Below, one piece after another: positions 2,295 through 58,216 of a DNA stretch of 64,000 nucleotides. Every line of letters starts with the position of its first letter. Position 1 is the stretch's first letter. Under the pieces are notes generated by a model that saw only the letters and a list, made by a program, of their open reading frames with translations, ran no database searches and had not been told where the DNA came from. Source of the stretch: Gammaproteobacteria bacterium (GTDB lineage Bacteria > Pseudomonadota > Gammaproteobacteria > JAABTG01). The stretch lies in the NCBI GenBank assembly GCA_034522055.1, contig JAXHLS010000006.1, forward strand, positions 248,001-312,000. Direction: 5' to 3'. A program made the position numbers and the translations under genes.

Positions 2295-2310
2295 TTTCGG
2301 CCTGCGAAGC

Positions 2311-2725: not shown

Positions 2726-2773
2726 CGGACCGGCTCCGCCGGTGTGGTCGTTCACGTTTTCAGGAGAACCATC

Positions 2774-12619: not shown

Positions 12620-12622
12620 TTT
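12564..12622 (+). repeat. attL: 59-bp direct repeat in tRNA-Ser
   Basis: Bases 12564-12622 are identical to 62821-62879. The repeat begins exactly at the anticodon loop (CTTGAAAA) and ends three T residues after the CCA. This is the standard core for P4-type tyrosine integrases that use tRNA genes. Confidence 0.92.
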
Positions 12623-23533: not shown

Positions 23534-23564
23534 GCGAACACTCCGTGATTTCGATACGGCCAGA

Positions 23565-23594
23565 CTATACCATAAACAACCGTTTAACGTATAG
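23565..23594. promoter_or_regulatory. Candidate recombinase binding site (13-bp inverted arms)
   Basis: CTATACCATAAAC (23565-23577) and GTTTAACGTATAG (23582-23594) are inverted copies at 11 of 13 positions with a 4-bp spacer. They lie 31 bp upstream of the recombinase start. This is the layout of one res/inv crossover subsite and could also control the gene. Confidence 0.55.
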
Positions 23595-23779
23595 CTTGAG
23601 GCGGCTCGGCAAGCTGTTGAATTATCAAGAGCGAGGAGGCGCAAAATCGGGAGGGTTTTCCGTATACCTAGTTTTCCCGGCGCCCCGCGCCCGTGAGTGT
23701 CGGCGTCCTGCTACACTGAAAGTCAAAAGGTTCGCCACTCACTGCGACCTCAACATGAACGACTGGGAGGCAGATCCAG

Positions 23780-25463: not shown

Positions 25464-28340
25464 GTGGAGGCGCACTACTCGCCCGGGATGCGGGTCGAGA
25501 TACGAGATGCCGAGTGGCGGGTCCGGCAGGTGGACCGGAGTTCCGACGGAGGTCATCTGCTCACTTGTGAGGGGCTGTCCGAACTCGTGCGCGGGCGGGA
25601 GGCGCGCTTTCTCACCAGGCTGGAGGGACAGGTCCGGGTGCTGGACCCTCGGGATACGGTCCTCGAGGACGACACCGCCAGCGGTTATCTCGCCAGCCTG
25701 CTCTATCTCGACACGGTTATCCGCAAGACCCCCGTCTCTGGGAAGCGGATTCACATGGGCCACCGGGCCGCTCTCGATCCCCTGCCGTTTCAGCTGGACC
25801 CGGCGGTGCAGGCCCTCAGCCAGCCCCGTTCCCGCATCCTTATCGCCGACGCCGTGGGTCTCGGCAAGACCCTGGAGGCCGGGATCCTGGTCTCCGAACT
25901 CATCGCCCGGGGGCGCGGCCGGCGCATTCTCGTGCTGGCGGTCAAATCCATGCTGGCCCAGTTCCAGCAGGAGTTCTGGAACCGATTCACCATCCCCCTG
26001 GTGCGCCTGGATTCCCTCGGTCTGCAGCGGGTGCGCAACCGCATTCCCGCCAACCACAATCCGTTCCACTACTTCGACCGCAGCATCATCTCCATCGACA
26101 CCCTCAAGCAGGACATCGAGTACCGCCACTACCTGGAACAGGCCCACTGGGACATCATCATCATCGACGAGGCCCACAACGTGGCCGACCGGGGCAGCCG
26201 TTCTCAACGCGCCCGCCTGGCGCGGCTGCTGGCCACCCGCTCGGATACCCTGATCATGCTCTCGGCTACCCCCCACGATGGCAAGGCCCGGAGCTTTGCC
26301 AGCCTGGTGAACATGCTGGATCCTACGGCCATCGCCAACCCGGACGACTACCAACACGAGGATTTCCGGGACAAGGGCCTGGTCATCCGTCGCTTCAAGG
26401 CGGACGTCAAGGACGACCTCGGGGGCCACCTGCCGGAACGGCAGATAGCGGTGGTCAAGACGCCGGCTTCCTTGGAAGAAGAGGCCGCCTACGCCGAGTT
26501 GGAGGGCGTTACATTCCATACACTGGATGGCCGTCGGGGCGGGGGCGGAGCCCAACTCTTCCGCACCACCCTGAAGAAGGCCCTCTACTCCAGTCCCGCG
26601 GCCTGTCTCGGCACCCTGGAGAACCGGACACGACGCCTGGAGCAGCGGCAGCCCACGCCTGAGATCGCGGCTGATCTGGACAAGCTCCACGGGCTGCGCC
26701 TGGCCGTGGAGGCCATCGCACCGGCACGCTTCAGCAAGTACCAGCGCCTCCTCGCTCTCCTCGGCGATGGTGGCGAGGGCCTTGGCTGGACACCCAACGA
26801 ACCCGGGGACCGCCTGGTGCTCTTCACCGAGAGCCTCAGGACCCTGGAGTTCCTGGAGGCACGGCTCCCCAAGGATCTCGGGCTCAAGAAGGGCCAACTC
26901 GACGTGCTCCGGGGCGATCGGCCGGACCGTGAGTTGATGGAGGTGGTGGAGGCCTTCGGACGCGGGGACAGTCCTGTCCGCCTGCTGCTGTGCTCGGACG
27001 TGGCGGCGGAGGGCATCAATCTCCATCACCTGTCCCACCGCCTCATCCATTTCGACGTCCCGTGGTCGCTGATGCTGTTCCAACAGCGCAACGGCCGCAT
27101 CGACCGCTACGGCCAGCAGCACCGGCCCCAGATCCGTTACCTGATCACGGAATCCACCAACCCGCGCATCCAGGGCGAGCAGCGGGTGCTGGAGATCCTC
27201 ATCGAGAAGGACGAGCAGGCCCAACACAATATCGGCGACCCTTCCGAGTTCCTCGGTCAGTACACGGTGGAAGGGGAAGAGGACAAGGTGGCGGAGATCA
27301 TCGAGCAGCAAGACGATGACCTGGCGGCCCTGTTCGCCCGGATCCTCGATACCCAGCAGGCCGCGGCGGCTGCGCCGCTGAAACAGTTCACTCCGCCCGC
27401 CACCCCGAGCAGGACCCTGACGGAGGTGGCGGCAGAGGGTTTCAGTCTCTACGAGGACGACTTCCACTATGCGGCCGCCGCCCTGGAGTGGCTGCGGGCC
27501 TGCGGCGTGCTGCTCCAGGCCGAGGTGAACCAGGAAGCCCGCCGCGTGGCCCTCACCGCCCCGCCAGACCTCCAGCAGCGCCTGCGCCGCCTGCCGCCCG
27601 AGTCCCGCCCCGAGGGCGACCGCTTCATCCTCAGCGCCGACACCCGGCTCATCCAGGAGGAGTTGCGCCAGCGCCGGGACGAGGACAGCCTCTGGGCCCA
27701 GCGTCAGTATCTCTGGCCTTTGCACCCGGTGATGGAGTGGCTGGCCGACCGGGCCCTGAACGCCTTCGGCCGCCATACCGCTCCGGTCCTGCGTTTGCCG
27801 GGCCGGCTGGCCGCCAATGAGTCCGCTTTCCTCGTCCAGGGCGGCTTCCCCAATCGCCGCGGTTACCTGTTGGTCCAATCCTGGCTCGGCGTCCTTCTTC
27901 GCGACGGCGAGGTGGTGGAAGAGCTGGCGCTGGAACCCTTCATCGCGCGCCTCGGCTTGGCCCCCGGCCAGGTGCCCAACCGGGGCATCGCCGGTGATAC
28001 CCGCTTCCTGCAGGAGCAGCTGCCCGGGGTCGTGGATCGGGCCGACGAGCGCCTGCGTGCCCACAAAAAAAGGGAAGAAGTGGGGATAAACGAGCAGCTC
28101 AATCGGCAGATGGAGGCCATGGACAGCCTCAAGCAACACCATGTTCAACAGCTCGATCTCGAGCTGGCCGCCAGCGACCAGCCCGATACCTTCAAGGCGC
28201 GGCGCCGTGATGAGCGCATGGCCCACATCGAGCGCATCTTCCAGGACTACGAAGACTGGCTGGAGGATACCCAGCTCACCGCCGACGAACCCTACCTCCA
28301 GGTCATCGCCGCCTTCACGGGGCAGGAGGCACAGCCGTGA
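25464..28340 (+). CDS. SNF2-family helicase, DrmD-like
   Basis: A 958-residue protein with a GTG start behind aaggagcaggg. Motif I is ADAVGLGKTLEAG near residues 128-140. The DEAH box lies at 235-238 (IIIIDEAHNVADRG), followed by SATPHDGK. The helicase C-terminal part at about 509-555 has SDVAAEGINLHHL and QQRNGRIDRYGQ. This is a SNF2/RapA-type translocase. DrmD of class 1 DISARM and DpdE are relatives by domain. A four-base overlap (GTGA) with the methyltransferase gene and the shared strand support a DISARM-like pair. Probable role: ATP-driven DNA translocation in phage defence. The exact family name is an inference. Confidence 0.85.
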   Translation: MEAHYSPGMRVEIRDAEWRVRQVDRSSDGGHLLTCEGLSELVRGREARFLTRLEGQVRVLDPRDTVLEDDTASGYLASLLYLDTVIRKTPVSGKRIHMGHRAALDPLPFQLDPAVQALSQPRSRILIADAVGLGKTLEAGILVSELIARGRGRRILVLAVKSMLAQFQQEFWNRFTIPLVRLDSLGLQRVRNRIPANHNPFHYFDRSIISIDTLKQDIEYRHYLEQAHWDIIIIDEAHNVADRGSRSQRARLARLLATRSDTLIMLSATPHDGKARSFASLVNMLDPTAIANPDDYQHEDFRDKGLVIRRFKADVKDDLGGHLPERQIAVVKTPASLEEEAAYAELEGVTFHTLDGRRGGGGAQLFRTTLKKALYSSPAACLGTLENRTRRLEQRQPTPEIAADLDKLHGLRLAVEAIAPARFSKYQRLLALLGDGGEGLGWTPNEPGDRLVLFTESLRTLEFLEARLPKDLGLKKGQLDVLRGDRPDRELMEVVEAFGRGDSPVRLLLCSDVAAEGINLHHLSHRLIHFDVPWSLMLFQQRNGRIDRYGQQHRPQIRYLITESTNPRIQGEQRVLEILIEKDEQAQHNIGDPSEFLGQYTVEGEEDKVAEIIEQQDDDLAALFARILDTQQAAAAAPLKQFTPPATPSRTLTEVAAEGFSLYEDDFHYAAAALEWLRACGVLLQAEVNQEARRVALTAPPDLQQRLRRLPPESRPEGDRFILSADTRLIQEELRQRRDEDSLWAQRQYLWPLHPVMEWLADRALNAFGRHTAPVLRLPGRLAANESAFLVQGGFPNRRGYLLVQSWLGVLLRDGEVVEELALEPFIARLGLAPGQVPNRGIAGDTRFLQEQLPGVVDRADERLRAHKKREEVGINEQLNRQMEAMDSLKQHHVQQLDLELAASDQPDTFKARRRDERMAHIERIFQDYEDWLEDTQLTADEPYLQVIAAFTGQEAQP

Positions 28341-31300
28341 CCTGGGCGGGGATCATCAACGACAACGAGTTCTACTCCGAGCATTACCTCTCCGAGGTTT
28401 TTCTAGGCGACATCAAGGAGGCCATGGACCAGTGGCAGCAGGCCGAGACCGCGGCCCGCCAGACCGCCGAGGACTCCGGCAGGAAGGGCCAGCTCCCGGA
28501 CCACGAGCTGGCGCCGTGGAACCGTCTCGGCCGCATGGGCCACGCCTACGTCCAGGGGCTCTCCATGCTGGAGCGCGAGCGCGACCCGCAGCGCCGCGTG
28601 GAGGCCCAGCGGGAGCTGGTGCGGGAGTTGCTGTCGGCCCTGGGCTACGACTGGTCGCCGCGCCGGGTCCCTGCCGGCGACGAGGCGGAGTTCCCGGTGC
28701 TGGCGGAGTACCAGGATGCCACCGGTGCGCCGTTCTTGTGGGCGGTCCAGGCGGTGCCCCTGGAGGAGCCGGACACGGATCCCCTGGCCGTGCCTCTCCA
28801 GGAGCAGCAGTTCCTCACCCTGGGCCCCACGCCGGTGCCCAAGGTGCTGGCCGACGGTAGCGGCCTGGTGGACTGGCAGGGGGCGCTCGCCCGTTTCATC
28901 TTCGCCCAGCCTCGCCCGCCGCGCTGGGTGCTGCTGGCGAGCCCCCGCCAGTGGCTGTTGGTGGACCGCGCCAAGCTCGCCCAGGGCAGGGTGCTGCGCT
29001 TCGACTGGGTGGAACTCTTCACCCGCCGCGAGACCGAGGCCCTCAAGGCCGCCAGCGCCCTGGTGCACCGGGATTCCCTGGTGGCGGGTGACGGCCAGAG
29101 CCTGCTGGACACCCTGGAGGAGAGCGCTCACAAGCATGCCTACGGGGTCTCCGAAGACCTCAAGTACGCCTTGCGCGAGTGCATCGAGCTGCTGGGCAAC
29201 GAGGCCGCCGGCCAACTCATCGCCACCGCCCAGGCCCAGAAGAAGGGCATCTATTCGGGCCAGCTGGACCCGGGCCAGCTGAGCCTGGAATGCCTGCGCT
29301 ACATGTACCGGCTGCTGTTCCTCTTCTACATCGAGGCCCGCCCGGAGCTGGGTTACGCCCCCATGGCCTCGGAGACCTACCTCACCGGCTACAGCCTGGA
29401 CCACCTGCGGGAGCTGGAGCTGGTTTCCCTTACCCAATCTGCCGAGCAGCAGGGCCGCTACTTCCACGATTCCCTGCGGACCCTGTTCAGGCTGGTCCAC
29501 GAAGGCTATCAGCAGGCCCAGGGGGACCTGCTGGCCCGTAACACCGGTGGCGACGCCTTCACCATGGCGCCCCTGCCCTCCCATCTCTTCGACCCGGAGC
29601 GCACACCCCTTCTCAACCGGGTGGTGTTCACCAACGTCACCCTGCAGCAGATCATCCGCCTCATGTCCCTGTCCCGGCCGGCCAGGGGGCGCCGGCGGCG
29701 CGGGCGGATCTCCTACGCCCGCCTCGGCATCAACCAGCTGGGGGCCGTCTACGAGGCTCTGCTCTCCTACCGGGGGTTCTTTGCCACGGAAGACCTCTAC
29801 GAGGTCAAGCGTGCGGGCGACCCCAACCCGGATGCCCTGGACACCGGTTACTTCGTCAAGGCCGAAGAGATCGAGCGTTACAAGGACGGCGAGCGGGTCT
29901 ACGACCGCGACGAGGCCGGCCACCGCGTGTTGCGCCGTCACCCCAAAGGGCGGTTCCTGTACCGCCTGGCGGGGCGGGACCGCCAGAAGTCGGCGTCCTA
30001 CTATACCCCCGAGGTCCTCACCCGCAGCCTGGTGAAGTACGCCCTGGCCGAACTCTACAAGGAGCAGTTGGACCCGTTGCCCGATGATGCCGCCCGCGCC
30101 GAGCGGGTGCTCGGGCTCAAGATCTGCGAGCCGGCCATGGGCTCCGCGGCCTTCCTCAACGAGGCCATAGACCAACTCGCCGACAAGTACCTGGCCCTGG
30201 CCCAGAGCGCCCGGGATGAACGTATCAGCCAGGCCGACTATGCCCGCGAGAAACAACGGGTGAAGATGTTCATCGCCGACAACAATGTCTTCGGCGTGGA
30301 CCTCAACCCTGTGGCAGTGGAGTTGGCCGAGGTGTCCCTGTGGCTGAACGCCCTGTCCGCGGACCGCTTCGTGCCCTGGTTCGGCCTCCAGCTGGTGAAC
30401 GGCGATTCCCTCATCGGCGCCCGCCGCGAGACCTACCCGTCGTCGAGTCTCGCCAGGCGCGCGAGCGACCCCGAGTCCTGGCTCAAGTGCCCCCCGGAGC
30501 GCACCCCCCTGGGCCAGCCGCGGCCGGACGGCCGCGTATGGCATTTCCTCGTGCCCAACACCGGCATGGCCCGCTACACCGACAAGGTGGCGAAGGCCCT
30601 GCATCGCGAGGAGATCAAGGCCATGGACCGCTGGCGCCGGGAGTTCACCCGGCCGTTCTCCCGGGAGGAGCGGGAGCGCCTGGAGATCCTGTCCGCCCGC
30701 ATCGACGCCCTGTGGGACGAGCACGCCGCGAGCCTGGGCCGCCTGCGCGCGCGCACCACCGATCCTTACGGCGTCTACGGCCATGAGGCCAGTGGCACCC
30801 GGACCAGCCTTTCCTTCAAGGACGAGGCCCTGGCCGGCGAACTCTATGCCCTGTACCAGAAGAACGCTACGGCCTATCGCCGCCTCAAGCTCGCCATGGA
30901 CTACTGGTGCGCCCTGTGGTTCTGGCCCCTCGAGCGCCACGAGGACCTGCCGGACCGCGAGGAGTTCCTGTTCGACCTGGAGAACCTGCTGCTGGGTGAC
31001 ACCGTGGCCGCCGGCCCGAAGTACGAGGTGCGGGACCTGTTCCCGCCCACCCAGGACCAGGAGGAGGGCAGGCGCTTCATCAATCGCTTCGGGGTGGTGA
31101 ACCTGGAGGCCCTGTTCAAGGCTTTCCCGCGCCTCCGGCAGGCCCACGAAATGGCCGGCAGGCGCCGCTTCCTCCACTGGGAGCTGGAGTTCGCGGATAT
31201 CTTCGCCGGGCACGGCGGCTTCGACCTGGTGCTGGGGAATCCGCCGTGGATCAAGGTGGAGTGGGAGGAGAGCGGGGTGCTCGGCGACCACGAGCCCCTG

Positions 31301-33244: not shown

Positions 33245-33304
33245 CGCCGAAACGGCGGGCGGCGATGCATGAGCAGGAAACCAAAGAATAGGACGAGATG
33301 ACAG

Positions 33305-33718
33305 ATGGACCCCAAGAGCGTTGATGAGTGGATGGCCGTGGCAAAGGAGCGACTTGAAGATGCTAGGGCGGTGAACCAAGGAGTGCCGAATTCCGTCGGC
33401 GCCGCTTATCTGGCAGGGTACGGTGTAGAGTGTGGTCTCAAGGCCTATTTAGATTTTCAAGAAACAGCGATCCCGAAAGGCCGAGATGGACATGACTTGC
33501 TGAATCTGATGCGTATGGCCGGGTTGCAACTGAGCAGAGCCGCCCCGGCACAAGATCAATCGTGGTTGATCGAGAATTGGAGCGTGGATTGGCGCTACCG
33601 TCGAATGGCCGACCCACCAATCACAAGCTCGAAGAAATGCGTGGAGGCGGCTGGAAAGCTTCAAGCCTATGTCAGTAAGTTGATCGCCCGCCAACGCAGT
33701 TCTAGGACTAGACGATGA
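33305..33718 (+). CDS. HEPN-domain-like protein, 137 aa
   Basis: A small helical protein. AAYLAGYGVECGLKAYL near residues 33-49 and GHDLLNLMRMAG are typical of HEPN proteins paired with nucleotidyltransferases or large ATPases. HEPN domains are often RNases or their partners in toxin-antitoxin and abortive-infection systems. The usual RX4-6H catalytic motif is not evident, so this copy may be a non-catalytic or atypical member. The stop overlaps the start of the next ATPase gene, so the two form a pair. It begins 60 bp after the methyltransferase stop. Confidence 0.7.
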   Translation: MDPKSVDEWMAVAKERLEDARAVNQGVPNSVGAAYLAGYGVECGLKAYLDFQETAIPKGRDGHDLLNLMRMAGLQLSRAAPAQDQSWLIENWSVDWRYRRMADPPITSSKKCVEAAGKLQAYVSKLIARQRSSRTRR

Positions 33719-36393
33719 TGACCCCAACAGAGATCGAGCAGCGAATTCGCAGGGCCCTAGAAAGTGAAGGAGTGGATCCCGATACTTTGAGGGTTGCAGC
33801 AGATCCATATGGCGGTTGGCAGGTTCGCATCGTAGCAGCGGGTTTCGAGGGGATGGCGGAAGGCGAACGACGCGGGCTGTTGCGGAACGCGATGGAGGGT
33901 GAGCCCCTGAGTTGGCGGCAGTTGTTAGCACCCGCAGAAGAGGCGGATGCCGAGTCGTTCCCGAGATCCGAGAACAAGTCCTTACCGCTCTGGCCGGAGA
34001 GCCTGGCGCGGGGCGCAGAACGCCGGTCGGAATCTCAGCTCGCGGTCTTTCTGAGTGACTGCCCCGAGGAACTCTCACGCCCTGTGACCGCTACTTTCTA
34101 TTCACTCCGTGGTGGTGTCGGGCGATCGACTGCCTTGGCAATTACCGCTCGGTTGCTTGCGGAGCAGGACCTGAAGGTCGTATGCCTGGACATGGACCTC
34201 GAGGCGCCCGGTCTGGCCTCCCTGTTCGGCGTCGAGGGGCAGCTCGGTGACCACCAAGGTATTGTTGAGCTGCTGCTGGCACTCGATCAGGGGCTTCAGC
34301 CGGACTTCCCGGACCATTTGTTGCCGGTGGATGAGAACGGCCGGTTGTTCTTGCTCCCGGCAGGCCTTCCCGGCGCCGCCTATGCGCGAAATCTGCGCCT
34401 ATTGGACCCGGCGGCCTGGTACACAGAGGATGAGAACCCGCTGCGCGACTTGCTAGATGGCGTACGAACGAAGCTGCCTTTCGTGCCGGATGTAGTGTTG
34501 ATCGACTCACGCACGGGTATTAGTGCGATCAGTGCGCCGCTCCTCTTCGAACAGGCGGATCTGGCAATGGTGTCGCTGTTCCCAAACGCGCAGGCCAAAC
34601 GAGGTACCGCAGCGCTCGTGGAAGGCCTATTGGCGGCGAGCAACCGCCGTGGCATGGAGTTTTACGGCCAAGCGGTTGGACCGGAAATCCGTTTTATCGT
34701 TGGCCCGTTACCGACCGGTTCGCCAGAGGTTCAAAAACGCCTATGGCACCGGGCCCTTGAATGGGTATCGGAGTGGATTGAGCCGGTACAGAAACCGCGG
34801 GTGTCAGCCGGCTTGCTGGAACTGGACGAAGCAGAAATGACCACTGCCGTCCCTTATCGGGAGGTAATAGCCGCGAGTGACGTGATCAACGAGTGGTCGA
34901 CTGACGTGGTCGACGAGGGGTCGACAACCGGTGGACCCTACGGGCGGGTCGCCGGCTGGATCAACGGCTTTCTGATGCCAAGTGTAGAGACAACGGAAGC
35001 ACCGTCAGATGCGACGACCAAAACGGATATTCTCGACGATCTGCAAGTAGAGACCGGTGCGGCCGAAGACCAAGAGGAGCTGCTGTCGGTATTCATCGAA
35101 ACTGATGTGGTGCGGCGGGCTCTCAAACCCGACTATCCGGTTATATTAGGGCGCAAGGGGACTGGCAAGACGGCGTTGTTCCGCAAACTGTCGGAGCTAC
35201 CCCCGAAAGGCACTGACTCCTCCATTGTGCATCCTCCACATGGCAGTGCAAAAAGAGAATGGCACTTGACTACTTCTGGGTTTCGCCGCGTTGACCAGGA
35301 GTTTGTCCAGACCGGCCGAATGACTTGGCAATCGTTCTGGGCAGCCTATCTCATTGTCGGTATCGTCAACTCAATGGATGAGGCCGAGCTGCCAAGCTCG
35401 CTTGAGCGGCCAAATGCGAGCCCGATAGGCGATGCCACGGCCTTACTGGACTGGCTAAAGTCCTTGTTGACTGATCCGAAGGCGGACCTGCTATTGGAGG
35501 AGGCGCTGCAATGGATCGATAAGCGTCTGGAACGTCCCCTTTACCTGGTTTGGGACGGCCTGGATGTTGGGTTCGGCAATGAGAGGGAGGACCGCGAACG
35601 GCGCGAGCGAGCCCTCGTTGGCCTGCTAGCGCTCATAATCGAGTGGGAAAAGCAGCTTCAAAACATCCGTTTCAAAATCATGCTTCGGGAGGATATCTGG
35701 CGTGATCTACGTTTTGAGAACAAAAGCCATCTCTACGGCCGATCTGTGGCCTTGCGCTGGAGCGATAAGATCACTTTCCTTAAGGTCTTGCTCAAACAGC
35801 TCTGGCGCTCAGACAAGCTCCGGGAGTATGTAGAGAGGAACATTCCGAAATCCAAACGGGTGGAGGATGTACCGGTGGAGGACTGGGGGGATCAGGACAC
35901 GGTTAACGTCTGGGAGCTTGTGGTCGGTGCCCGGATGAGCGGCGGCAACACTGCCTTCACCAGAAATTGGGTCTGGAAGCGTCTCGGCGATGCTAACGAC
36001 GACCACGCTCCCCGCCACCTGCTTCAGCTGTTCTCCAAGGCTATCGACTGGGAGAAGAACCAAGAGAAGACATCGTCTTATCAACGCAGTCTCATTCGGC
36101 CCAATACCCTGGTCAAGGTGCTGCCCGACGTCTCCAAGCAGGCGTTGGATGCCATGCTGGAGGAATTCAAGGAGCTGGAGCCGGTGTTCGATGCGCTTCG
36201 CGAAATCGGCAAAACGCCGTTCAACGCGGCCGAAGCCGATTCCGTTTCGGGCATGAATACGGAGCTGCTTGACCTTGCGCTGGAGGTCGGCCTTCTGGGT
36301 ATCCATGAAGGCACCGAGCGTGCTCCGGAGCGGTATCGCGTACCTGAACTCTATCGCCTGGGGCTTGGGATGGCCCGCAAGGGACAGGCATGA
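33715..36393 (+). CDS. ParA/MinD-like plus P-loop double ATPase
   Basis: An 892-residue protein with two nucleotide-binding parts. The first has a deviant Walker A, FYSLRGGVGRSTALAI at about residues 128-143, followed by VVCLDMDLEAPGLASLFG and DVVLIDSRTGIS. This is the KGGVGR-type ParA fold, with Arg in place of the first signature Lys. The second has a classical P-loop, ILGRKGTGKTALFRKL near residue 480, and a Walker B-like LYLVWDGLDVGFGNE near 610, resembling Sll1717-type STAND-like ATPases. It overlaps the HEPN gene by four bases. Probable role: sensor/switch ATPase controlling the HEPN partner. Function is inferred only. Confidence 0.7.
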   Translation: MMTPTEIEQRIRRALESEGVDPDTLRVAADPYGGWQVRIVAAGFEGMAEGERRGLLRNAMEGEPLSWRQLLAPAEEADAESFPRSENKSLPLWPESLARGAERRSESQLAVFLSDCPEELSRPVTATFYSLRGGVGRSTALAITARLLAEQDLKVVCLDMDLEAPGLASLFGVEGQLGDHQGIVELLLALDQGLQPDFPDHLLPVDENGRLFLLPAGLPGAAYARNLRLLDPAAWYTEDENPLRDLLDGVRTKLPFVPDVVLIDSRTGISAISAPLLFEQADLAMVSLFPNAQAKRGTAALVEGLLAASNRRGMEFYGQAVGPEIRFIVGPLPTGSPEVQKRLWHRALEWVSEWIEPVQKPRVSAGLLELDEAEMTTAVPYREVIAASDVINEWSTDVVDEGSTTGGPYGRVAGWINGFLMPSVETTEAPSDATTKTDILDDLQVETGAAEDQEELLSVFIETDVVRRALKPDYPVILGRKGTGKTALFRKLSELPPKGTDSSIVHPPHGSAKREWHLTTSGFRRVDQEFVQTGRMTWQSFWAAYLIVGIVNSMDEAELPSSLERPNASPIGDATALLDWLKSLLTDPKADLLLEEALQWIDKRLERPLYLVWDGLDVGFGNEREDRERRERALVGLLALIIEWEKQLQNIRFKIMLREDIWRDLRFENKSHLYGRSVALRWSDKITFLKVLLKQLWRSDKLREYVERNIPKSKRVEDVPVEDWGDQDTVNVWELVVGARMSGGNTAFTRNWVWKRLGDANDDHAPRHLLQLFSKAIDWEKNQEKTSSYQRSLIRPNTLVKVLPDVSKQALDAMLEEFKELEPVFDALREIGKTPFNAAEADSVSGMNTELLDLALEVGLLGIHEGTERAPERYRVPELYRLGLGMARKGQA

Positions 36394-36430
36394 ATGCCCA
36401 GTTGATGTGTCATCGGTATCTACGGCCCCC

Positions 36431-36580
36431 GGCTGGGGGGACGTGAAAAACCTGGAGGAAGATACCATCACCGAGAAGCTCAGGGACAACACCCTCGCCG
36501 GCGGCCCCGTGGAGAGCAGCGTGGCCTACCACGCCCCCTTCTACCACCCGGATCGGGCGCAGGACTACCGCACAGCCTGA
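36431..36580 (+). pseudogene. Relic of a second methyltransferase C-terminus
   Basis: Fifty codons read GWGDVKNLEEDTITEKL .. NTLAGGPVESSVAYHAPFY .. PDRAQDYR then stop. The C-terminus of the methyltransferase gene at 28337 reads GWEDVRDMKEGVVTKIF .. DTLPGGPFERTVEYHAPFY .. PDREQDYR. About 60% of aligned residues are identical. No start or upstream part remains; the previous gene ends at 36393. I interpret it as the 3' end of a related but distinct methyltransferase gene left after recombination. Confidence 0.8.
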
Positions 36581-36623
36581 GCCATCTTCCAGCAACGCCA
36601 TTCCGAGAGCTGAAGGAGACGTC

Positions 36624-36815
36624 ATGTTCCAACCGGGCACCTGGGTCCAGACGCACCCGGGCCGAGTCCAAGCGGAGGGCCGCCCGCCGGGCGGGATGAG
36701 GGGCCAGTCAGACACCGGCTCGGCGGCTGGCTTACGCCCCCCTCACCCCGGCCCGCTCTCCCGGCGGCGAGACGGTGCCAGTGGGTTGCGGCTTGTTTCC
36801 GTCCTGGGGGGATGA
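36624..36815 (+). CDS. Possible small ORF between relic and giant helicase, 63 aa
   Basis: ATG at 36624 follows gaaggagacgtc, a good ribosome site, and opens MFQPGTWVQTHPGRVQAEGR. The rest is Pro/Gly/Arg-rich and looks untranslated or degraded. It may be a relic like its neighbour or a leader peptide for the giant helicase gene, which starts five bases after its stop. Confidence 0.3.
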   Translation: MFQPGTWVQTHPGRVQAEGRPPGGMRGQSDTGSAAGLRPPHPGPLSRRRDGASGLRLVSVLGG

Positions 36816-36819
36816 ACTG

Positions 36820-39800
36820 ATGCTGCCCTCCGTCGTCGCCAGCGAACTCCAGGACGCCATCCGCCGCTTTCTGCAGGCCACCTTCCCCATGACTACCCCG
36901 GGTTTCCGGCGTGACGACGGCAGCACCATGCTGGACGATCTGCTGGCGGATCCGCGGGCCCTCTTCCGGGGTCCCTACCTCAGCCTGGGGCTGCCTTTTC
37001 GCCGGATGGGGGAGGGTGATGAGTTGCCCTTCGAGTACCTGGAGCTATCCTTCACACCCTACCGCCATCAGCAACGGGCCTTCCAGCGCCTGTGCGGCCC
37101 GAGCCCCCACTCAACCCTGGTGGCCACGGGTACCGGCTCCGGCAAGACCGAATGCTTCATGTTGCCCATCCTGGACTACTGCGCCGGACAGAAGGGCCAG
37201 GGCGTCAAGGCCATCGTTATCTATCCCATGAACGCCTTGGCCACCGATCAGGCACGGCGCTTCGCCCGGGAGATCCATAACCGCCAAGGCCTTCGAGGCA
37301 AGGTGAGTGTGGGGCTCTACGTAGGCGACCAGGAGCGGACGCCCCGGAAAACTATGGCGCCGGACGACGTGATCACCTGCAAGGAAACGCTGCGGGAGTA
37401 TCCCCCGGACATCCTGCTCACCAATTACAAGATGCTGGATTTCCTGCTCATGCGCCCCCGGGACCAGCGCCTGTGGCGCTTCAACGAGCCGGGAAGGCTG
37501 CGCTACCTGGTGGTGGACGAGTTGCACACCTTCGATGGTGCCCAGGGAACCGATCTGGCATGCCTGATCCGCCGCCTGCGGGACCGCCTGGTGCCCCAGG
37601 CGGACCTGGCCTGTGTGGGTACCTCGGCCACCCTGGGCGGCGCCAGCGCGGCCCGGGAATTGGTGCACTACGCCGAGCGGGTGTTCGCCGGCCCCTTCGG
37701 CGAGGACGCGGTGATTCTGGAGGATCGCCAGACGGCGGATGAGTTCCTGGGCGAAGCGCCAGTAGAATTCACCGAGTGGCCCACCAGCGGCGTCAACCGG
37801 GCCATCCGCCCGGAACTCCACGACTCCGCGGTCGATTACCTGCGCGCCCAGGCATTGCTTTGGTTTGGTGCCGCGGCCCCCGAGCTGGATGCGTCAGAGC
37901 CGACAGGGGCAACGAAGGCGCGCTTCGATCTGGGGAACCGCCTCAAGGAATGTGCCGCCTTCAGGGAGCTGGTCTCCCGCGCCAATTCCATCATAGACAT
38001 CGGGCCCCTGCTGGCGGAGTGGGAGGCCCGGTTCCGAATCGGCCCTACCCAGGCCCGACAGATGCTGGAGAGCCTGCTGGCACTGGTCTCCTGGGCGCTT
38101 AGGGCCAAGACGCCGGGTGTCGAACCGGGAGGTGAGGATGACGGCGGGCCATTGGTGGATGTGCGCGCCCAGTTGTGGCTGCGGGAGCTGAGCCGCCTGG
38201 TGGCCGTCGTAGGCCGGCGGCCGACCCTCCACTTCGCCGATGATCTGACGGAGCTGACGAGCCCGCTCCACCTGCCGGCCGTGCACTGCCGGGAATGTCA
38301 TGCCACGGGCTGGGTATCGGTGCGTGAGCCCAGCGAGGGCCGTCTGGAATCTGACCTCCAGACCATCTATCGGGCCTACTTCGCCCGCCATCCTGATGTC
38401 TCATTGTTGTTTCCCCTGGACAATGATCCACCCACCGGCGAGATCAAGGGCATCGATGCTCTCGCCTGCCCGCAGTGCGGGCAGATCTTCTCCAGGCGCG
38501 ACGCCGACGCCTGCCCGCAGTGTGGCGCCGGGGAGGTTGTCCGGGTGTGGGAGCCCAACATGCGCCGGACCGTAAGCAGGGGCGACCAGAACCAGCAGCG
38601 CAGCCATCACGACTGCCCGTTCTGTGCTGCCGCCGAGGGCCTGAGCCTCATCGGCTCCCGCGCGGCATCGCTTTCCAGCGTGCTTATCGGCAAGCTTTTC
38701 GCCACGCCCTACAATGACCACCGCAAGCTGATCGCCTTTTCCGACGCAGTCCAGGATGCTGCCCATCGGGCCGGCTTTTTCGGGGCCCGCACCTACAGCA
38801 CCCTGGTGCGGTCGGCCATCGCCCGTTTTATCCATGCCCAGGGCGAGGGCATGCCGCTGTCCATGGTGGCGGCGGAAACCCCACGCTACTGGCGCAACCA
38901 CGTTGCTGATGACGAGACCTTCGTGGGTACCTTCATCGCACCCAACATGGAGTGGCTGAGAGGCTACGAGCGCTTGCGGGAAGATGGACATTTGCCCACC
39001 CCCAGCGACCTGCCACAACTGGTGGAGGAGCGTCTGACCTGGGAGGTCTTGCAGGGCTTCGGACTGCGGGCACGCATCGGCCGCACCCTGGAGCGTTCCC
39101 TCACCGCGGCGGTAGGGGTGGACGAGAATACCCTGCGGGAGAGCGCGCGCCGGCTCGCCACGCGGCTTGGCGAGGAGATCGGCACCCTGCGCGGCCTTGG
39201 CGAGGAACCCACTTATCGGTTCCTGCAAGGGCTGTTGTGGCGGCTGCGGGTACAGGGGGCCTTCTACCATCCGCTGCTGGACGGTTATATCCAGGCCCGG
39301 GGCAAGCCCTACGAACTCTACCGAACGCCTCAGATGCCCAACTATGGTGGCGCCGCGCGGCCGCCGGCGCTGGTCACCCTGGCCCGGCTTTGTGATTCCT
39401 TCACGGCGCTCCACCACGAGGGCCAGTCCTGGTATTACGGCTGGTTCAACAAGGTGATGGCGCTCGATGAGGCCGTGCTGGCCTCCGCCGAGTATCGCCA
39501 GGTGATGTCTCTGACGGTGGAGCACCTGACCCGCGACGATTACCTGGTGGAGCGCCACACCACCGGCGAGTCGGTTTGGGGGCTGAACCCGGGACAATGG
39601 ATCTGCACCACGGCCGTGGACGACTTGGCCTGTCATCGTTGCGGCCACCGCATCCAGGTGCCGCGGGAGGACCGCGCCGCATGGCAGGATATGCCTTGCC
39701 TGCGCGCCGCCTGCGCAGGCGCCTACCAGCCTGCCCCTGCCGGCCGCCCCGAGCGCGTCATCGGGGCCGGCCCGCCTCACCGGCTGGTGCCTGCGGAGCA

Positions 39801-42800
39801 CACTGGCCTACTGGACGCGGACCTCCGCCACGAGGTGGAGCAATCCTTCATGCGCGGCACCGCGGCCTGGGATGTCAACCTGCTGTCGGCAACTCCCACC
39901 CTGGAGATGGGAATCGACATCGGGGACCTGTCCAGCGTGCTGCTGTGCTCGGTGCCTCCCGCCCAGGCCAATTACCTGCAACGGATCGGGCGTGCCGGCC
40001 GGCGGGACGGTAACGCCCTGACCGTCACGGTCGCCAATGCCCATAAGCACGACCTCTATTTCTTCTCCGATCCTCTCGCCATGCTGGCCGGCGAAGTGCG
40101 TCCCCCGGGCGTTTTCCTGGAGGCCACCGCCGTGCTGGAACGACAGCTCATCGCCTATTGCTTCGACCGCTGGGCGGCCACCGGCATCGATGATACCGCC
40201 ATCCCGGGTCAACTGCGGGTCGTCCTGGATGGGTTGGAGGCCACGGGCGGGGAACGTTTCCCCCAGTCTTTACTGCAATTCATCGAGGGCGCAAGGGCCG
40301 ATATCCTGCGCGGGTTCCTCGCACTATTCCCCGACCTCACCGAAGAAGCCCAGGAGCCTCTTCGTGCCTTTCTTTATGGTACCAAGGACAAGTCGGGGCT
40401 CGCCCATCGACTGACAAACCGTCTCTATCAGTTGGTGGACGAGCGCCATAGCCTCACCAAGCGCATAGACCGCCTGAAGGATCAGAAGAAGCGCCTGGAA
40501 AACCAACCCCAGGACGAGGCCGTGCGGGAGGAATTGGACGGTTTGGAGGCGGAGCGCGGTGCCTTGCAGGCCCTGCGGCGGCGCATGAACGCCAAGCCTA
40601 CCCTGAATTTCTTTACCGATGAGGGCCTGCTGCCGAACTACGCCTTTCCCGAGGAGGGCGTGACCATCAATTCGGTGATCCTGCGGCGAATTAGCCAGGC
40701 GGAACGCACCGGCGATGATGCGGGCCAGCGGTACGAGCGCATCAACTTCCAGATGCAGCGCCCCGCCCAAGCCGCCCTGAGCGAGCTGGCTCCCCTCAGT
40801 CGCTTCTACGCCGTAGGACGGGAGGTGGAGATCGACCAAGTGGACCTGTCGGTCAGCCAGACCCAGGAGTGGCGACTGTGCGACCGCTGCCACTACACCG
40901 AGAATCTGGCGGAGAGCGGTGATCCCCACAGCGTGTGCCCCCGTTGTGGCAGCCCCCAGTGGGCGGACGCTGGCCGCAAGCGTACCCTGCTGAGGTTGCG
41001 CCAGGTGTTCGCGACCGCCGATGACCGCACGAGCCGCATCGGTGATGACAGCGATCAGCGGGCGCCCTCGTTCTTCAACCGCCAGATGCTGGTGGACGTG
41101 CCGCCGGGTTCCGCGACCCACGCCTATCGGTTGGCGGCCGAGCAGTTGCCCTTCGGTTTCGAGTACGTGCCGCGGATGCGACTGCGGGAGATCAACTTCG
41201 GCCAGCCGGAAGGCCAAGCCGAGGAATTCGCCGTGGCCGGAGAATTCAGTTCCCGGCCCGGCTTTCAACTCTGTCGCCATTGCGGCAAGGTGCGCCGCAA
41301 CGCCCGCGGCCGGCGTCCCACGTTCCAGCATGCCTATGATTGCCGCCTGCGCCGGCCCGGTGCGCAGGAGAAGGACGAGGACTACTTCGACAGCCTCTAC
41401 CTGTTTCGTGAGTTGGAGTCTGAGGCAGTCCGCATCCTCCTGCCCCTGGCGGAAGTGGGGACGTCCGGCAAACGCCTGCACTCCCTGATCGCCGCCTTGA
41501 GCCTCGGCCTGCGCCGTTACTTCCGGGGCAATGTGGACCATATCCAGCTGGCCCACCATTCCGAGCCCACGGGTGGCGAGAGCCGCAAGCACTACCTGGT
41601 GCTTTACGACAGCGTGCCGGGGGGAACGGGCTATCTCAAGGAGTTGTTGAGAAGACCGGAGAACCTGATGGCGCTCCTGCAGGGGGCCTATGACGTCATC
41701 AGCCGCTGTGGGTGCCGGGAGGAGGAGGGCAGGGATGGTTGCTACCAGTGCCTGCTCGCCTATCGGGAGAGTCGCAGGATGGACGAGATCTCCCGCCAGG
41801 CGGCCGAGGAGATCCTTGCGAAGATCCTGGCCGAGGCGGATACCCTTCAGCCCATCGATGGTCTGGGATCCGTGGACATCAACGCGCTCCTGGAGAGCGA
41901 GTTGGAGCAGCGCCTGGTGAACGCCCTGGGCAACGCGCCGGGCGTGACGTTGTCGCCCGAGTTAGTCAATGGCAAGCCGGGCTTCTTCCTGACCATTGGC
42001 GGCCCGGGTACCGGATTCGAGCGCGCCGCCGCCTGGAAGGTGGAGCCCCAGGTCAACCTGGGGCCGGCCCACGGCGTCGCCACCAATGTGAAGCCGGACT
42101 TCGTCCTGTGGCCGTTACGCGAGCGGCCCGGGCTGCTGCCCGTTGCGATTTTCGCGGATGGTTTTCAATACCACTATGCCAAGCTCGCCGACGACACCCT
42201 GAAGCGCCAGGGCCTGTTGGACAGTGGGAGGTTCCGCGTCTGGAGTCTGGGCTGGCATAACCTGCCCATCGCCGGCATGAAGCAAATGAACCCCGCCGAG
42301 CATCTGCTGAAGACCGGCCAGCAGTCCATGATGCAAGAGCTCTGGAGCAGGCTGGCCGCGCAGGGGGGTTGGTCCCATTACATGGAGTACTCGAGCTTTA
42401 TTGCCGAGGGCCCCTTTCGCTGGCTGCTCGCGTACCTCAGCGCTAGCGACGATGCGCTCGACCGGCTCCGGCATGCCGCGCTCTCCCGCACCATCGGCTG
42501 GCTGGACCCGCGGAGCCGTCGGGACCCCGAATACCGGCGGGCGATGCTCGCGGAACTCTCCACCCAACTGCCGGGCCACGTACACGAGTGGCTGGGCAGA
42601 ACTTCAGAGGATCCGTCGCTACTCGGGGGCATGCTGGCGGCCGCAGGGACCTTGGAAGGCGAGATTCGTGCAGTGTGCCGGCTGCCGTATAGCGCCATGG
42701 AGCAGGCCAAGCAAGGGGTACTCGAGCCACTGTGCGGAGAGGTGTCCGTACATGTGGCCATCGATGACGTCCATGCCCGCCAGGACAAGGACTTCGAGGG

Positions 42801-43236
42801 TGTGTGGAGTGGCTTCTGGGGTTGCGCCAACCTGTTGCAGTTCCTCCCCGCCTTGACCCTGTCGTCAGCCACCGGGGTGACACAGGGCATCTATCCTATT
42901 TGGACAACGCCGCCCAAGGGTGAGGTGGCGGCTGCAGGACAGTCGGAAGCAGCGGATGGCAACTGGCGGGAGGTGGCCGACCTGTCCGTATTCGGCGAGG
43001 CCATCCTGTTGCTGAAGGCGCAGGGGCTGCCACCCCCCGAGGTCGGTGTCGAGCTGCTAGATGGCTCCGGCGAGGTGCTGCCCGAGCTGGAGTTGGCATG
43101 GCGGGACCAGCGCCTCGCGGTAGTGGAAGAGCTGGGTTCAGATGCACAAAAAACGTATGAGCAGATGGGCTGGACCCTGTTCGTAGGGCTCGACGAGACG
43201 GTCGCCCGGGAGCTGGCGGGGCGGCTCGGTGAATAA
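36820..43236 (+). CDS. Giant DEAD-box helicase with DUF1998 and C-terminal nuclease-like domain (DruE-like)
   Basis: A 2138-residue protein. Motif I is ATGTGSGKTECFMLP at about residues 102-116, the Walker B variant is DELH at 233-236, and motif VI YLQRIGRAGRRDG lies near 1050. Zn-ribbon-like Cys pairs occur near 490-600 (CRECH, CPQCG twice, CPFC) and again near 1355-1490. The DUF1998/MZB region has YLVLYDSVPGGTGYLKEL and GCYQCLLAYRESR near 1590-1650. From about 1758 the segment KPDFVLWP .. VAIFADGFQYHYAKLADD .. GLLDSGRFRVWSLGW resembles an MTES/DUF559-type endonuclease fold. Size and order recall DruE of Druantia, or a fusion of DrmA and DrmB. I chose 36820, where a G-rich site precedes the ATG. 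Probable role: DNA unwinding and cleavage in defence. Confidence 0.82.
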   Translation: MLPSVVASELQDAIRRFLQATFPMTTPGFRRDDGSTMLDDLLADPRALFRGPYLSLGLPFRRMGEGDELPFEYLELSFTPYRHQQRAFQRLCGPSPHSTLVATGTGSGKTECFMLPILDYCAGQKGQGVKAIVIYPMNALATDQARRFAREIHNRQGLRGKVSVGLYVGDQERTPRKTMAPDDVITCKETLREYPPDILLTNYKMLDFLLMRPRDQRLWRFNEPGRLRYLVVDELHTFDGAQGTDLACLIRRLRDRLVPQADLACVGTSATLGGASAARELVHYAERVFAGPFGEDAVILEDRQTADEFLGEAPVEFTEWPTSGVNRAIRPELHDSAVDYLRAQALLWFGAAAPELDASEPTGATKARFDLGNRLKECAAFRELVSRANSIIDIGPLLAEWEARFRIGPTQARQMLESLLALVSWALRAKTPGVEPGGEDDGGPLVDVRAQLWLRELSRLVAVVGRRPTLHFADDLTELTSPLHLPAVHCRECHATGWVSVREPSEGRLESDLQTIYRAYFARHPDVSLLFPLDNDPPTGEIKGIDALACPQCGQIFSRRDADACPQCGAGEVVRVWEPNMRRTVSRGDQNQQRSHHDCPFCAAAEGLSLIGSRAASLSSVLIGKLFATPYNDHRKLIAFSDAVQDAAHRAGFFGARTYSTLVRSAIARFIHAQGEGMPLSMVAAETPRYWRNHVADDETFVGTFIAPNMEWLRGYERLREDGHLPTPSDLPQLVEERLTWEVLQGFGLRARIGRTLERSLTAAVGVDENTLRESARRLATRLGEEIGTLRGLGEEPTYRFLQGLLWRLRVQGAFYHPLLDGYIQARGKPYELYRTPQMPNYGGAARPPALVTLARLCDSFTALHHEGQSWYYGWFNKVMALDEAVLASAEYRQVMSLTVEHLTRDDYLVERHTTGESVWGLNPGQWICTTAVDDLACHRCGHRIQVPREDRAAWQDMPCLRAACAGAYQPAPAGRPERVIGAGPPHRLVPAEHTGLLDADLRHEVEQSFMRGTAAWDVNLLSATPTLEMGIDIGDLSSVLLCSVPPAQANYLQRIGRAGRRDGNALTVTVANAHKHDLYFFSDPLAMLAGEVRPPGVFLEATAVLERQLIAYCFDRWAATGIDDTAIPGQLRVVLDGLEATGGERFPQSLLQFIEGARADILRGFLALFPDLTEEAQEPLRAFLYGTKDKSGLAHRLTNRLYQLVDERHSLTKRIDRLKDQKKRLENQPQDEAVREELDGLEAERGALQALRRRMNAKPTLNFFTDEGLLPNYAFPEEGVTINSVILRRISQAERTGDDAGQRYERINFQMQRPAQAALSELAPLSRFYAVGREVEIDQVDLSVSQTQEWRLCDRCHYTENLAESGDPHSVCPRCGSPQWADAGRKRTLLRLRQVFATADDRTSRIGDDSDQRAPSFFNRQMLVDVPPGSATHAYRLAAEQLPFGFEYVPRMRLREINFGQPEGQAEEFAVAGEFSSRPGFQLCRHCGKVRRNARGRRPTFQHAYDCRLRRPGAQEKDEDYFDSLYLFRELESEAVRILLPLAEVGTSGKRLHSLIAALSLGLRRYFRGNVDHIQLAHHSEPTGGESRKHYLVLYDSVPGGTGYLKELLRRPENLMALLQGAYDVISRCGCREEEGRDGCYQCLLAYRESRRMDEISRQAAEEILAKILAEADTLQPIDGLGSVDINALLESELEQRLVNALGNAPGVTLSPELVNGKPGFFLTIGGPGTGFERAAAWKVEPQVNLGPAHGVATNVKPDFVLWPLRERPGLLPVAIFADGFQYHYAKLADDTLKRQGLLDSGRFRVWSLGWHNLPIAGMKQMNPAEHLLKTGQQSMMQELWSRLAAQGGWSHYMEYSSFIAEGPFRWLLAYLSASDDALDRLRHAALSRTIGWLDPRSRRDPEYRRAMLAELSTQLPGHVHEWLGRTSEDPSLLGGMLAAAGTLEGEIRAVCRLPYSAMEQAKQGVLEPLCGEVSVHVAIDDVHARQDKDFEGVWSGFWGCANLLQFLPALTLSSATGVTQGIYPIWTTPPKGEVAAAGQSEAADGNWREVADLSVFGEAILLLKAQGLPPPEVGVELLDGSGEVLPELELAWRDQRLAVVEELGSDAQKTYEQMGWTLFVGLDETVARELAGRLGE

Positions 43237-43268
43237 ATGGCACAAGAAGGAGCAGGAGGGTGAATGAA

Positions 43269-45386
43269 ATGAAGCCGATGGTGGCCATCTACGACGACTT
43301 CCTGGAGGCCTATGCCGCCATCCCCAAGGCTCAACAGAAGAAGGTGATGAGCTTCGTCACCAAGTTCCGGCATGGCCCGTTCAGCTCCGGCATCAACTAC
43401 GAGAAGATCAACGACGCCGCCGATCCGAACTTCCGATCCGTTCGCATCGACCAGGACTACCGCGGGATTGTGCTGAGCCCCGAGCAGGGCAACGTCTACA
43501 TCCTGCTGTGGGTGGCCAAGCACGATGATGCCTACGATTGGGCCCGGAACCATACCTGCCAGGTGCATCCCGAGACCGGCAGCCTCCAGCTATTCGAGTC
43601 GGCAACCGAAAGTGCCTTGGCCCCCGATGCCGCGAAGCCCGACGCGGACACGGCGCCACCCCTTTTCGATCTGCGTGACCGGGAGCTTCTGCGCCTGGGT
43701 ATACCGGAGAATCGGCTCGACTTGGTCAAGTCCCTGCGTACGGAAGAAGCGCTGGAGGCCATCGAAGATCAGCTGCCCGTGGATGCGTTCGAGGCCCTGT
43801 ACCTGATCGCGGCAGGGAGCGACCCAGAAGAGATCATGCAGGAGTATGCGGCAAAACAGGCCGTGGATACCTCGGACTTCGCAGCTGCCCTGCAGCGGAA
43901 CCAGTCCCAGCGCAGCTTCTGTGTGGTAGAGGATGACAAGGAGCTGGAAGCCATGCTCTCCGCGCCCCTGGAGAAGTGGCGCGTGTTCCTGCATCCCTCC
44001 CAGCGGCGTCTTGTGGAGTGGAACACCAACGGCCCGATCCGGGTGCTGGGTGGGGCCGGAACAGGCAAGACAGTGGTGGCCATGCACCGCACCCGCTGGC
44101 TGGTGCGCCAGGTGCTGGCTGCCACCGACAAGAGGGTCCTGTTCACCACCTTCACGGCCAATCTGGCCACCGACATCAAGGAGAACCTGCGCAAGATCAT
44201 GAAGCCGGAGGACCTGCAACGGGTGGAAGTGACCCACGTGGACCAGTGGGTGAGCCGGTTTCTGAAGCAGCACAAGTATCCGCACCAGATCGTCTACGAC
44301 AGCCAGCAGAAGTACAGGAGATGCTGGCAGTTGGCGATGGACGCGAAGCCAGCCGAGCCCGACTTGCCCGAGAGCTTCTTCAAGGAGGAGTGGGAGCGAA
44401 TCATCCTCCACCAGCGGATCACCGACCGCAAGGAGTACTTCCAGGCCAAGCGCACGGGACGTGGAGTAGCCCTCACGCGCGCGCAGCGCGCCGCTATCTG
44501 GCCAGTCTTCGAGGAGATGAGGATTCAGCTCCACCAGAAGGGCCTGCGCACCATAGAGGACGCGACCCAGGACGCTGCGGACCTGCTGGACGGCGGCCAA
44601 GCCTATCCACCCTTCGCCGCCGTGGTGGTGGACGAGGCCCAGGACATGGGCCCGGAGGTCATGCGCCTGATCCGCAGGCTGGCGCCAAAGGGAGGAAACG
44701 ACCTGTTCATCGTCGGTGACGGGCATCAGAGAATCTACCGCCGCCGCTACGCCCTGAGCGCCTGTGGCATCGAGGTGCGAGGGCGCAGCCGCAAGCTTAG
44801 GATCAACTACCGGACCACAGAGGAAACCCGCCGGTTCGCGGTTTCCGTGCTGGAAGACCAGCCGGTGGACGACCTCGACGACGGCACTGACACCGAGTCC
44901 GGCTACCGCTCACTGATGCATGGTGAGCCCCCCCAGGTGAAAGGGTTCTCGACGCAGGCGGAAGAGTTCGAGTGGCTGGCGGAAGAGATAGGACGCCTCC
45001 ATCAAGCCGGCGAGCCCCTGAAGAACATCTGTATCGTTGCACGCACCAATGCCCTACTGGAGGCCTACGAGGCCGCGCTGCAGGAGCGTGGCATAGCGTG
45101 CGCCCGACTGAGCCGCAAACAGCCCGACGACCGCAACAGGGAGGGAGTGCGCCTGGCAACGATGCACCGGGTAAAGGGCCTGGAGTTCCGCTACGTGATC
45201 ATCGTCGCGGTAAACCACGACATTATCCCGCTGCGCCATGCGGTCCAGAGCACGGAGGATCCCACCGAGCAGCGCGCCACTGAGCTAACCGAGAGGGCCC
45301 TGTTGCACGTATCCGCGACGCGAGCGATTAATGCGCTGGCGGTCACTTATTACGGGGCGCCAAGTCCGTTTTTACACGAGAGTTAG
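43269..45386 (+). CDS. UvrD/Rep-type helicase with RelE/ParE-fold N-terminus
   Basis: A 705-residue protein. Residues 1-95 (YDDFLEAYAAIPKAQQKKV .. RSVRIDQDYRGIVL .. YILLWVAKHDDAYDWA) have the strand/helix pattern of RelE/ParE toxins. A superfamily 1 helicase follows: Walker A RVLGGAGTGKTVVAM near 258-272, DEAQ at 455-458 (VVVDEAQDMGPE), then FIVGDGHQRIYRRRY, and MHRVKGLEFRYVII near 630. I prefer the ATG at 43269, with ggagg ten bases upstream, over a GTG at 43260. It ends the defence-type operon 32 bp after the giant helicase gene. The toxin-like domain may act on ribosome-bound mRNA or may only be a binding module. Confidence 0.85.
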   Translation: MKPMVAIYDDFLEAYAAIPKAQQKKVMSFVTKFRHGPFSSGINYEKINDAADPNFRSVRIDQDYRGIVLSPEQGNVYILLWVAKHDDAYDWARNHTCQVHPETGSLQLFESATESALAPDAAKPDADTAPPLFDLRDRELLRLGIPENRLDLVKSLRTEEALEAIEDQLPVDAFEALYLIAAGSDPEEIMQEYAAKQAVDTSDFAAALQRNQSQRSFCVVEDDKELEAMLSAPLEKWRVFLHPSQRRLVEWNTNGPIRVLGGAGTGKTVVAMHRTRWLVRQVLAATDKRVLFTTFTANLATDIKENLRKIMKPEDLQRVEVTHVDQWVSRFLKQHKYPHQIVYDSQQKYRRCWQLAMDAKPAEPDLPESFFKEEWERIILHQRITDRKEYFQAKRTGRGVALTRAQRAAIWPVFEEMRIQLHQKGLRTIEDATQDAADLLDGGQAYPPFAAVVVDEAQDMGPEVMRLIRRLAPKGGNDLFIVGDGHQRIYRRRYALSACGIEVRGRSRKLRINYRTTEETRRFAVSVLEDQPVDDLDDGTDTESGYRSLMHGEPPQVKGFSTQAEEFEWLAEEIGRLHQAGEPLKNICIVARTNALLEAYEAALQERGIACARLSRKQPDDRNREGVRLATMHRVKGLEFRYVIIVAVNHDIIPLRHAVQSTEDPTEQRATELTERALLHVSATRAINALAVTYYGAPSPFLHES

Positions 45387-50560: not shown

Positions 50561-50581
50561 GTCCGATGGTAGTCTGACGCC

Positions 50582-58200: not shown

Positions 58201-58216
58201 CTCGTGGCCGGCCGGC

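Follow-up and report, generated by a model that had tools for sequence, protein, structure and literature searches.

ARMADA Type II is an anti-phage system encoded by four genes in the strict order armA-armB-armC-armD (Bell et al., 2025 preprint, bioRxiv, PMC12458937). ArmA is a BrxHII/RapA-like helicase, ArmB is a PglX-like methyltransferase, ArmC is a helicase of the YprA family that carries a Vsr-type nuclease at its C terminus, and ArmD combines a RelE-like domain with a GajB-like UvrD helicase (PMC12458937). In E. coli, the tested system functions with these four genes and acts directly and non-abortively, without growth arrest, as shown for strain NCTC 12900; the same study lists loss-of-function residues and describes ARMADA islands as integrated at tRNA genes and equipped with an integrase (PMC12458937).

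Several described gene sets place a stand-alone module inside, or a HEPN protein next to, other machinery. PrrC lies in type I loci (also noted in PMC12629846), DarTG2 is embedded between hsdS and hsdR (PMC12255303), and backup effectors occur in BREX loci (PMC12839542). Papers that describe the work of Payne et al. (2024) report that PDC names are assigned by 'guilt by embedding' (PMC12988326, PMC12255303, PMC10855318). A dyad of a HEPN protein of the MAE_18760 family and a ParA/Soj-like ATPase has been predicted to be a toxin-antitoxin pair (Anantharaman et al., 2013, PMC3710099).

Here, we analyze six genes in a 64,000-nucleotide stretch of gammaproteobacterial DNA (the window, whose positions serve as coordinates throughout). 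Sequence comparisons make it highly probable that genes 1, 2, 5, and 6 constitute an ARMADA II system and that the HEPN-ATPase pair between them is a separately acquired module of the PDC-M28 type, which occupies an armB-armC slot within a tRNA-Ser island.

The arm genes and their tRNA-Ser island

The earlier note had described six same-strand genes with overlaps or short gaps, at the coordinates used here. An ORF check confirmed these co-directional ORFs, the third-position coding bias of the genome was present in most of them, and the domain calls were borne out by Pfam, NCBIfam, and PADLOC profiles. On the plus strand, armA (25464-28340) encodes a 958-residue BrxHII/RapA-like SNF2 helicase (Pfam SNF2-rel_dom; PADLOC DrmD, 316 bits) and overlaps armB (28337-33244), which encodes a 1635-residue PglX/YeeA-like N6-adenine methyltransferase (Pfam Eco57I; PADLOC REase_MTase_IIG, 833 bits). 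Downstream on the same strand, armC (36820-43236) encodes a YprA-family DEAD/MZB helicase with a C-terminal nuclease-like region (Pfam DEAD, MZB); its ORF is open from 36775, and placing the start at 36820 by a conserved MLPS gives a protein of 2138 residues. Finally, armD (43260-45386, plus strand) encodes 708 residues with an N-terminal RelE-like region and a GajB-like UvrD helicase (Pfam UvrD-helicase, UvrD_C). The ARMADA II gene order is thus kept and is interrupted by an insert, as armA-armB-[insert]-armC-armD.

Identity to the homologs encoded on an E. coli plasmid (L029) was 52.8% for ArmA, 53.0% for ArmB, 43.2% over 2080 residues for ArmC, and 50.4% for ArmD, in an alignment that takes in the N-terminal region of the latter. 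All 8 residues mutated by Bell et al. were conserved in the window proteins, namely (in window numbering) Walker A K135 and Walker B D235 of ArmA, G602 and N968 of the NPPW motif of ArmB, K109 and D233 of ArmC, and K270 and D458 of ArmD. In a tree restricted to ArmC sequences, the window protein fell among ArmC proteins of A-B-C-D loci, and other YprA/DruE-type proteins matched ArmC in the helicase region only, at 100-160 bits. Matches at the protein ends were weak, both for the RelE-like N terminus of ArmD (Pfam ParE_like, E=0.035) and for the C-terminal nuclease of ArmC (Pfam MTES_1575, E=0.17), and a search of solved structures by sequence with the ArmD N terminus gave no match. Residues D1760, D1780, and H1785 of ArmC were invariant in alignment A1. 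Homology and gene order therefore point to ARMADA Type II. The earlier note had known of no named system for its gene set; genes 1, 2, 5, and 6 match this named one in the published order, with the RelE-UvrD protein as the fourth gene. The same note's view of a multi-gene phage-defense locus was right.

These genes lie in a 50.3-kb island (12564-62879) bounded by an exact 59-bp direct repeat. The left copy (12564-12622, plus strand) takes in the 3' part of a tRNA-Ser(TGA) gene (12532-12619), and the right copy (62821-62879, plus strand) matches it exactly and is adjoined by a gene for a tyrosine integrase (61559-62557, minus strand; Pfam Phage_int_M, Arm-DNA-bind_3, Phage_integrase). Other mobile-element genes were also seen, with a DDE transposase-like ORF (49847-50638) and an IS21 istA/istB pair (55902-58329) inside the island and a resolvase gene at 22955-23644 (minus strand). 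Adjoining the integrase is a gene of low GC3 (59831-61153) for a DUF3644 protein whose C-terminal domain is restriction-endonuclease-like; the protein matches the PADLOC candidate PDC-S19 at 229 bits and is a further defense candidate of the same island. Near the tRNA-Ser end, a 1202-residue ORF of low GC3 (13886-17494) showed a weak AAA_30 match only, and PADLOC and NCBIfam gave no match to it.

The HEPN-ATPase module between armB and armC

Two plus-strand genes fill the interval after armB. The first (33305-33718) starts after a gap of 60 bp and encodes a 137-residue, PDC-M28A-like protein with a predicted HEPN fold (PADLOC, Pfam, AlphaFold model); the second (33715-36393) overlaps it and encodes 892 residues. 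No promoter-like sites were found between 33000 and 37000. The earlier note had called the second product a ParA-like/P-loop ATPase, and the ATPase assignment stands with the correction that two domains are fused, a KGGVGR-type ParA-like ATPase (NF047398, 140 bits, cut-off 90) and an Sll1717-family P-loop ATPase (NF047389, 128 bits, cut-off 75), both above the NCBIfam cut-offs and corresponding to PDC-M28B and PDC-M28C. An AlphaFold model of the fusion, made from 6 sequences, was poor (pLDDT 56). By profile matches, as distinct from PADLOC's system rule, the pair encodes the M28A (20.1 bits, E=1.7e-4), M28B (83.5 bits, E=4e-24), and M28C (56.8 bits, E=4e-16) types together. In the literature searched, we found no paper on KGGVGR, Sll1717, or PDC-M28.

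Such pairs also occur by themselves. Among 349 genomes from the phylum, M28C was found in 21, and in regions drawn from M28C-bearing genomes the module had no arm gene within about 8 kb in any of the 20 other loci examined, in most but not all of which the HEPN gene was recognized. These stand-alone loci were HEPN-ATPase-ATPase operons or, in four of the 20, paired a HEPN gene with a fused ATPase, and the module was also found on Nostoc and Calothrix plasmids. The HEPN + KGGVGR/Sll1717 pair is an autonomous module. In five stand-alone HEPN modules (L152, L153, L154, L155, and L156), the Sll1717-type ATPases carried C-terminal extensions of ~800-1300 residues.

The Pfam HEPN match to the 137-residue protein was sub-threshold (E=0.014), and a search of solved structures by sequence with the HEPN profile gave no match. 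An AlphaFold model built from 16 aligned sequences had a pLDDT of 86, however, and its best solved match was the archaeal HEPN protein 1wol (Z 13.2 over 112 residues), followed by 1o3u (Z 13.1); the six top-ranked structures were all HEPN or HEPN-like. The predicted structure thus confirmed a HEPN four-helix fold, in line with the HEPN-like call of the earlier note. Across 18 highly diverged family members, E42, K46, R97, and Y98 were invariant and H63 was found in all aligned rows, but the canonical RX4-6H motif was not conserved. The window protein has R97-X5-D103, with histidine at the latter place in 2 of the 18 members; R97-X5-[HD] was present in some members only, the window protein with D among them. 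In PF05168-type HEPN proteins, aspartate can replace this histidine and another conserved histidine may serve catalysis; the alternative histidine of AbiV occupies the equivalent position (Anantharaman et al., 2013, PMC3710099). The arrangement of R97-X5-D103 and H63 fits a PF05168/AbiV-like class with an alternative histidine. Because the RX4-6H motif is not conserved, RNase activity is unproven, though possible.

A trace of how the module arrived lies directly after it. The 0.4-kb gap before armC holds a second, broken copy of the armB 3' end (36425-36592, plus strand), which aligned with ArmB residues 1576-1631 over 56 residues at 53.6% identity with one in-frame stop (tblastn, E=1.8e-18) and matched armB DNA at 75.3% over 146 bp (blastn, E=2.6e-26). 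GC3 was 0.58 for the HEPN gene and 0.67 for the ATPase gene vs 0.81-0.85 for the arm genes, and the codon-usage distance of the module from the arm genes was 0.130 vs a maximum of 0.096 among 300 arm chunks of the same size. Stand-alone occurrence elsewhere, divergent codon usage, and the armB scar therefore argue that the module was inserted into the ARMADA operon. The simplest reading is that it entered a pre-existing operon between armB and armC and left the old armB end behind.

The armB-armC junction in other ARMADA II loci

A scan of a genome collection with an ArmC alignment gave 80 loci, which are the best matches to one alignment rather than a random sample and include some close relatives. 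In 57 loci other than the window, four plasmid loci included, the contig contained armB as well as armC, and in 28 of these 57 best-match loci an insert of 0.6-9.2 kb separated the two genes. Inserts were far rarer at the armC-armD junction (2/50 loci; Fisher p=7e-8 vs armB-armC) and at the armA-armB junction (4/43; p=2.5e-5), where three of the four gaps (L069, L073, and L096) were split or broken ORFs. At least 12 further loci had more than 1 kb upstream of armC on the contig without armB, so occupancy of the slot is probably higher. Among the 28 occupied loci, a candidate scar of the armB 3' end was found in L040 only (27 residues, 59%), so scars are no general rule; a 23-residue match to an earlier part of the armB tail in L072 was uncertain as a scar.

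Slot genes were mostly co-directional with their neighbors and often of defense type. They included LeoA (815 bits), SIR2/ThsA-like, AbiEii, and GmrSD genes and AbiLi (332 bits)/AriA-like ATPases, that is, AbiL/PARIS-like genes, as well as patatin, dynamin-like GTPase, NERD-kinase-helicase, Schlafen, PDDEXK, DUF262-like, and RhuM genes; several slot genes had no known function. Counted as fewest changes over coarse classes of our own making, and on a quick ArmC tree with long branches, slot content changed at least 26 times. Near relatives on this tree differed, with the HEPN-ATPase pair in the window, AbiE in Saccharophagus, and an empty slot in the MAG HF-Dia14. In 476 E. coli genomes, a single match spanned 80% or more of the 4 kb around the armB-armC junction, and the slot is thus empty there.

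The HEPN-ATPase pair was absent from most ARMADA II loci surveyed. Only one of the 57, the Desulfamplus locus L092, had a HEPN gene with a fused KGGVGR/Sll1717 gene in the same slot. Its ATPase was 22% identical to that of the window and its ArmC lay on a distant branch, so independent entry is likely; alternatively, finding such a pair twice at this junction could reflect a functional connection and not a chance reuse of the site. Two further observations concern other lineages. One Vicinamibacterales MAG (CATQHX) carried two close ARMADA II operons (L075 and L084) with different armB-armC contents, a HATPase-domain set in one case and a patatin set in the other. In L113, a 1066-residue SNF2 protein (2199-5399) without detected similarity to ArmA or ArmB was encoded directly upstream of a close ArmC relative and is possibly another slot occupant.

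A more far-reaching reading, which we hold to be somewhat less likely than not, is that the armB-armC junction is a dedicated slot for interchangeable second-layer effectors functionally coupled to ARMADA, which would be co-expressed with it and triggered once ARMADA is blocked or overwhelmed. If such coupling holds, ARMADA II would be a two-layer platform of modular design, and its slot would amount to a catalog of undiscovered effectors. If the slot is real and used, roughly half of ARMADA II operons bear a second module at one fixed junction, and armB-armC contents would thus offer a targeted route to new effectors. The slot also opens a general question to direct test, namely whether embedded modules are simply inherited together with their host system or protect it, as PrrC does for type I restriction.

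Possible mechanism and relation to known systems

Judging from the homologous system tested in E. coli, ArmB likely marks host DNA by adenine methylation, and ArmA, ArmC, and ArmD would target the DNA of incoming phage directly, in a way that spares the cell. The HEPN-ATPase pair is likely an independent second layer, in which the double ATPase probably keeps the HEPN protein inactive and would release it upon infection or upon failure of the first layer. The released protein may then cleave or bind RNA, and translation would stop; PrrC, a nuclease embedded in type I restriction loci, offers a comparison. A suicidal-HEPN mechanism is plausible, if somewhat short of probable. Functional cooperation between the ARMADA and HEPN-ATPase parts is possible.

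The earlier note had proposed that all six genes act as one anti-phage system. Were this composite obligate, the HEPN-ATPase pair would be a required subunit that senses infection for the other four proteins or is activated by them, which would suit the tight co-directional packing, the overlaps, the 60-bp armB-HEPN gap, the lack of promoter-like sites between 33000 and 37000, and the occurrence of a similar pair at this junction in a distant species (L092). The tested ARMADA II of E. coli nevertheless works with four genes, L092 alone among the 57 surveyed loci has the pair in its slot, all 20 other loci examined have the pair but no arm genes nearby, and an insertion scar and foreign codon usage accompany it in the window. 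The neighborhood survey found the six genes rarely together, the outcome that the earlier note had named as speaking against its proposal. We consider an obligate six-gene system very improbable and rejected it on neighborhoods, scar, and composition.

A separately acquired HEPN-ATPase module could have other roles than the second layer that we favor. It might be an addiction module of the toxin-antitoxin kind, which would kill cells that lose the slot and thereby stabilize the ARMADA operon or the island, with no role against phage. The predicted toxin-antitoxin nature of the HEPN + ParA/Soj-like dyad, which belongs to another HEPN family (PMC3710099), and the AbiE-type and RhuM genes among the slot contents lend this idea some weight, but antitoxins are usually much smaller than an 892-residue double ATPase, and the other slot contents are for the most part effector-type defense genes (LeoA, GmrSD, SIR2, patatin) rather than classical addiction pairs; we regard addiction as unlikely. 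The HEPN protein might instead be a catalytically dead adaptor for RNA or protein, with the double ATPase as the working part. Retention of H63 and R97-Y98 across 18 highly diverged members argues against a dead protein, as does the proposal of Anantharaman et al. (PMC3710099) that the alternative histidine may serve catalysis, whereas loss of a conserved RX4-6H motif, together with nearest families of the HEPN-T/AbiV types in which the usual histidine is replaced and an alternative one present, is what an adaptor would lead one to expect. On balance, an adaptor role appears doubtful.

ARMADA II, PDC-M28, and 'guilt by embedding' are already known. We found no report of an armB-armC slot in the literature searched, which did not extend to the supplementary material of Bell et al. 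or to the source preprint of the PDC names. As far as this literature shows, the combination of ARMADA II with PDC-M28, the armB scar, and the repeated use of the armB-armC junction as an insertion slot appear to be new.

Resemblances to DISARM and Druantia, both raised in the earlier note, reflect shared ancestry. With class 1 DISARM, the window shares a DrmD-like SNF2 helicase and a DrmMI/PglX-like methyltransferase, and with Druantia a DruE-like YprA helicase; unlike both, its fourth arm gene encodes a RelE-UvrD protein. Among the PADLOC matches listed for the 20 scanned ORFs, none was to DrmB or DrmC, and helicase cores common to these proteins account for the matches to the DrmA model; the NCBIfam DrmD score (345 bits) was below the cut-off of 610. 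We therefore rejected membership in class 1 DISARM, for which drmA, drmB, and drmC were not found, and likewise membership in Druantia, as DruE models matched ArmC in pieces and no other Druantia gene was among the matches listed for the scanned ORFs.

The window shares with PDC-M28, a candidate system of PADLOC-DB 2.0.0, a HEPN-like gene, a KGGVGR ATPase, an Sll1717 ATPase, and their order, but its ATPases are fused and its HEPN protein matches the M28A model weakly (E=1.7e-4). HEPN + ParA/Soj-like dyads (PMC3710099) likewise have a HEPN gene beside one for a ParA-like ATPase, yet in those dyads the HEPN protein is a MAE_18760-family member that retains the full RX4-6H motif, whereas the window encodes a HEPN-T/AbiV-like protein whose ATPase partner contains a second, fused ATPase domain. 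Compared with ARMADA Type II of E. coli NCTC 12900 and ATCC 8739, the window has the same four proteins, order, and catalytic residues and a tRNA-integrated island with an integrase, and differs in that the HEPN and ATPase genes, together with the armB scar, separate armB from armC. PrrC in type I loci, DarTG2 between hsdS and hsdR, and Hma-embedded candidates are also stand-alone modules inside DNA-targeting operons; here, in contrast, the module is hosted by ARMADA II, at the armB-armC junction.
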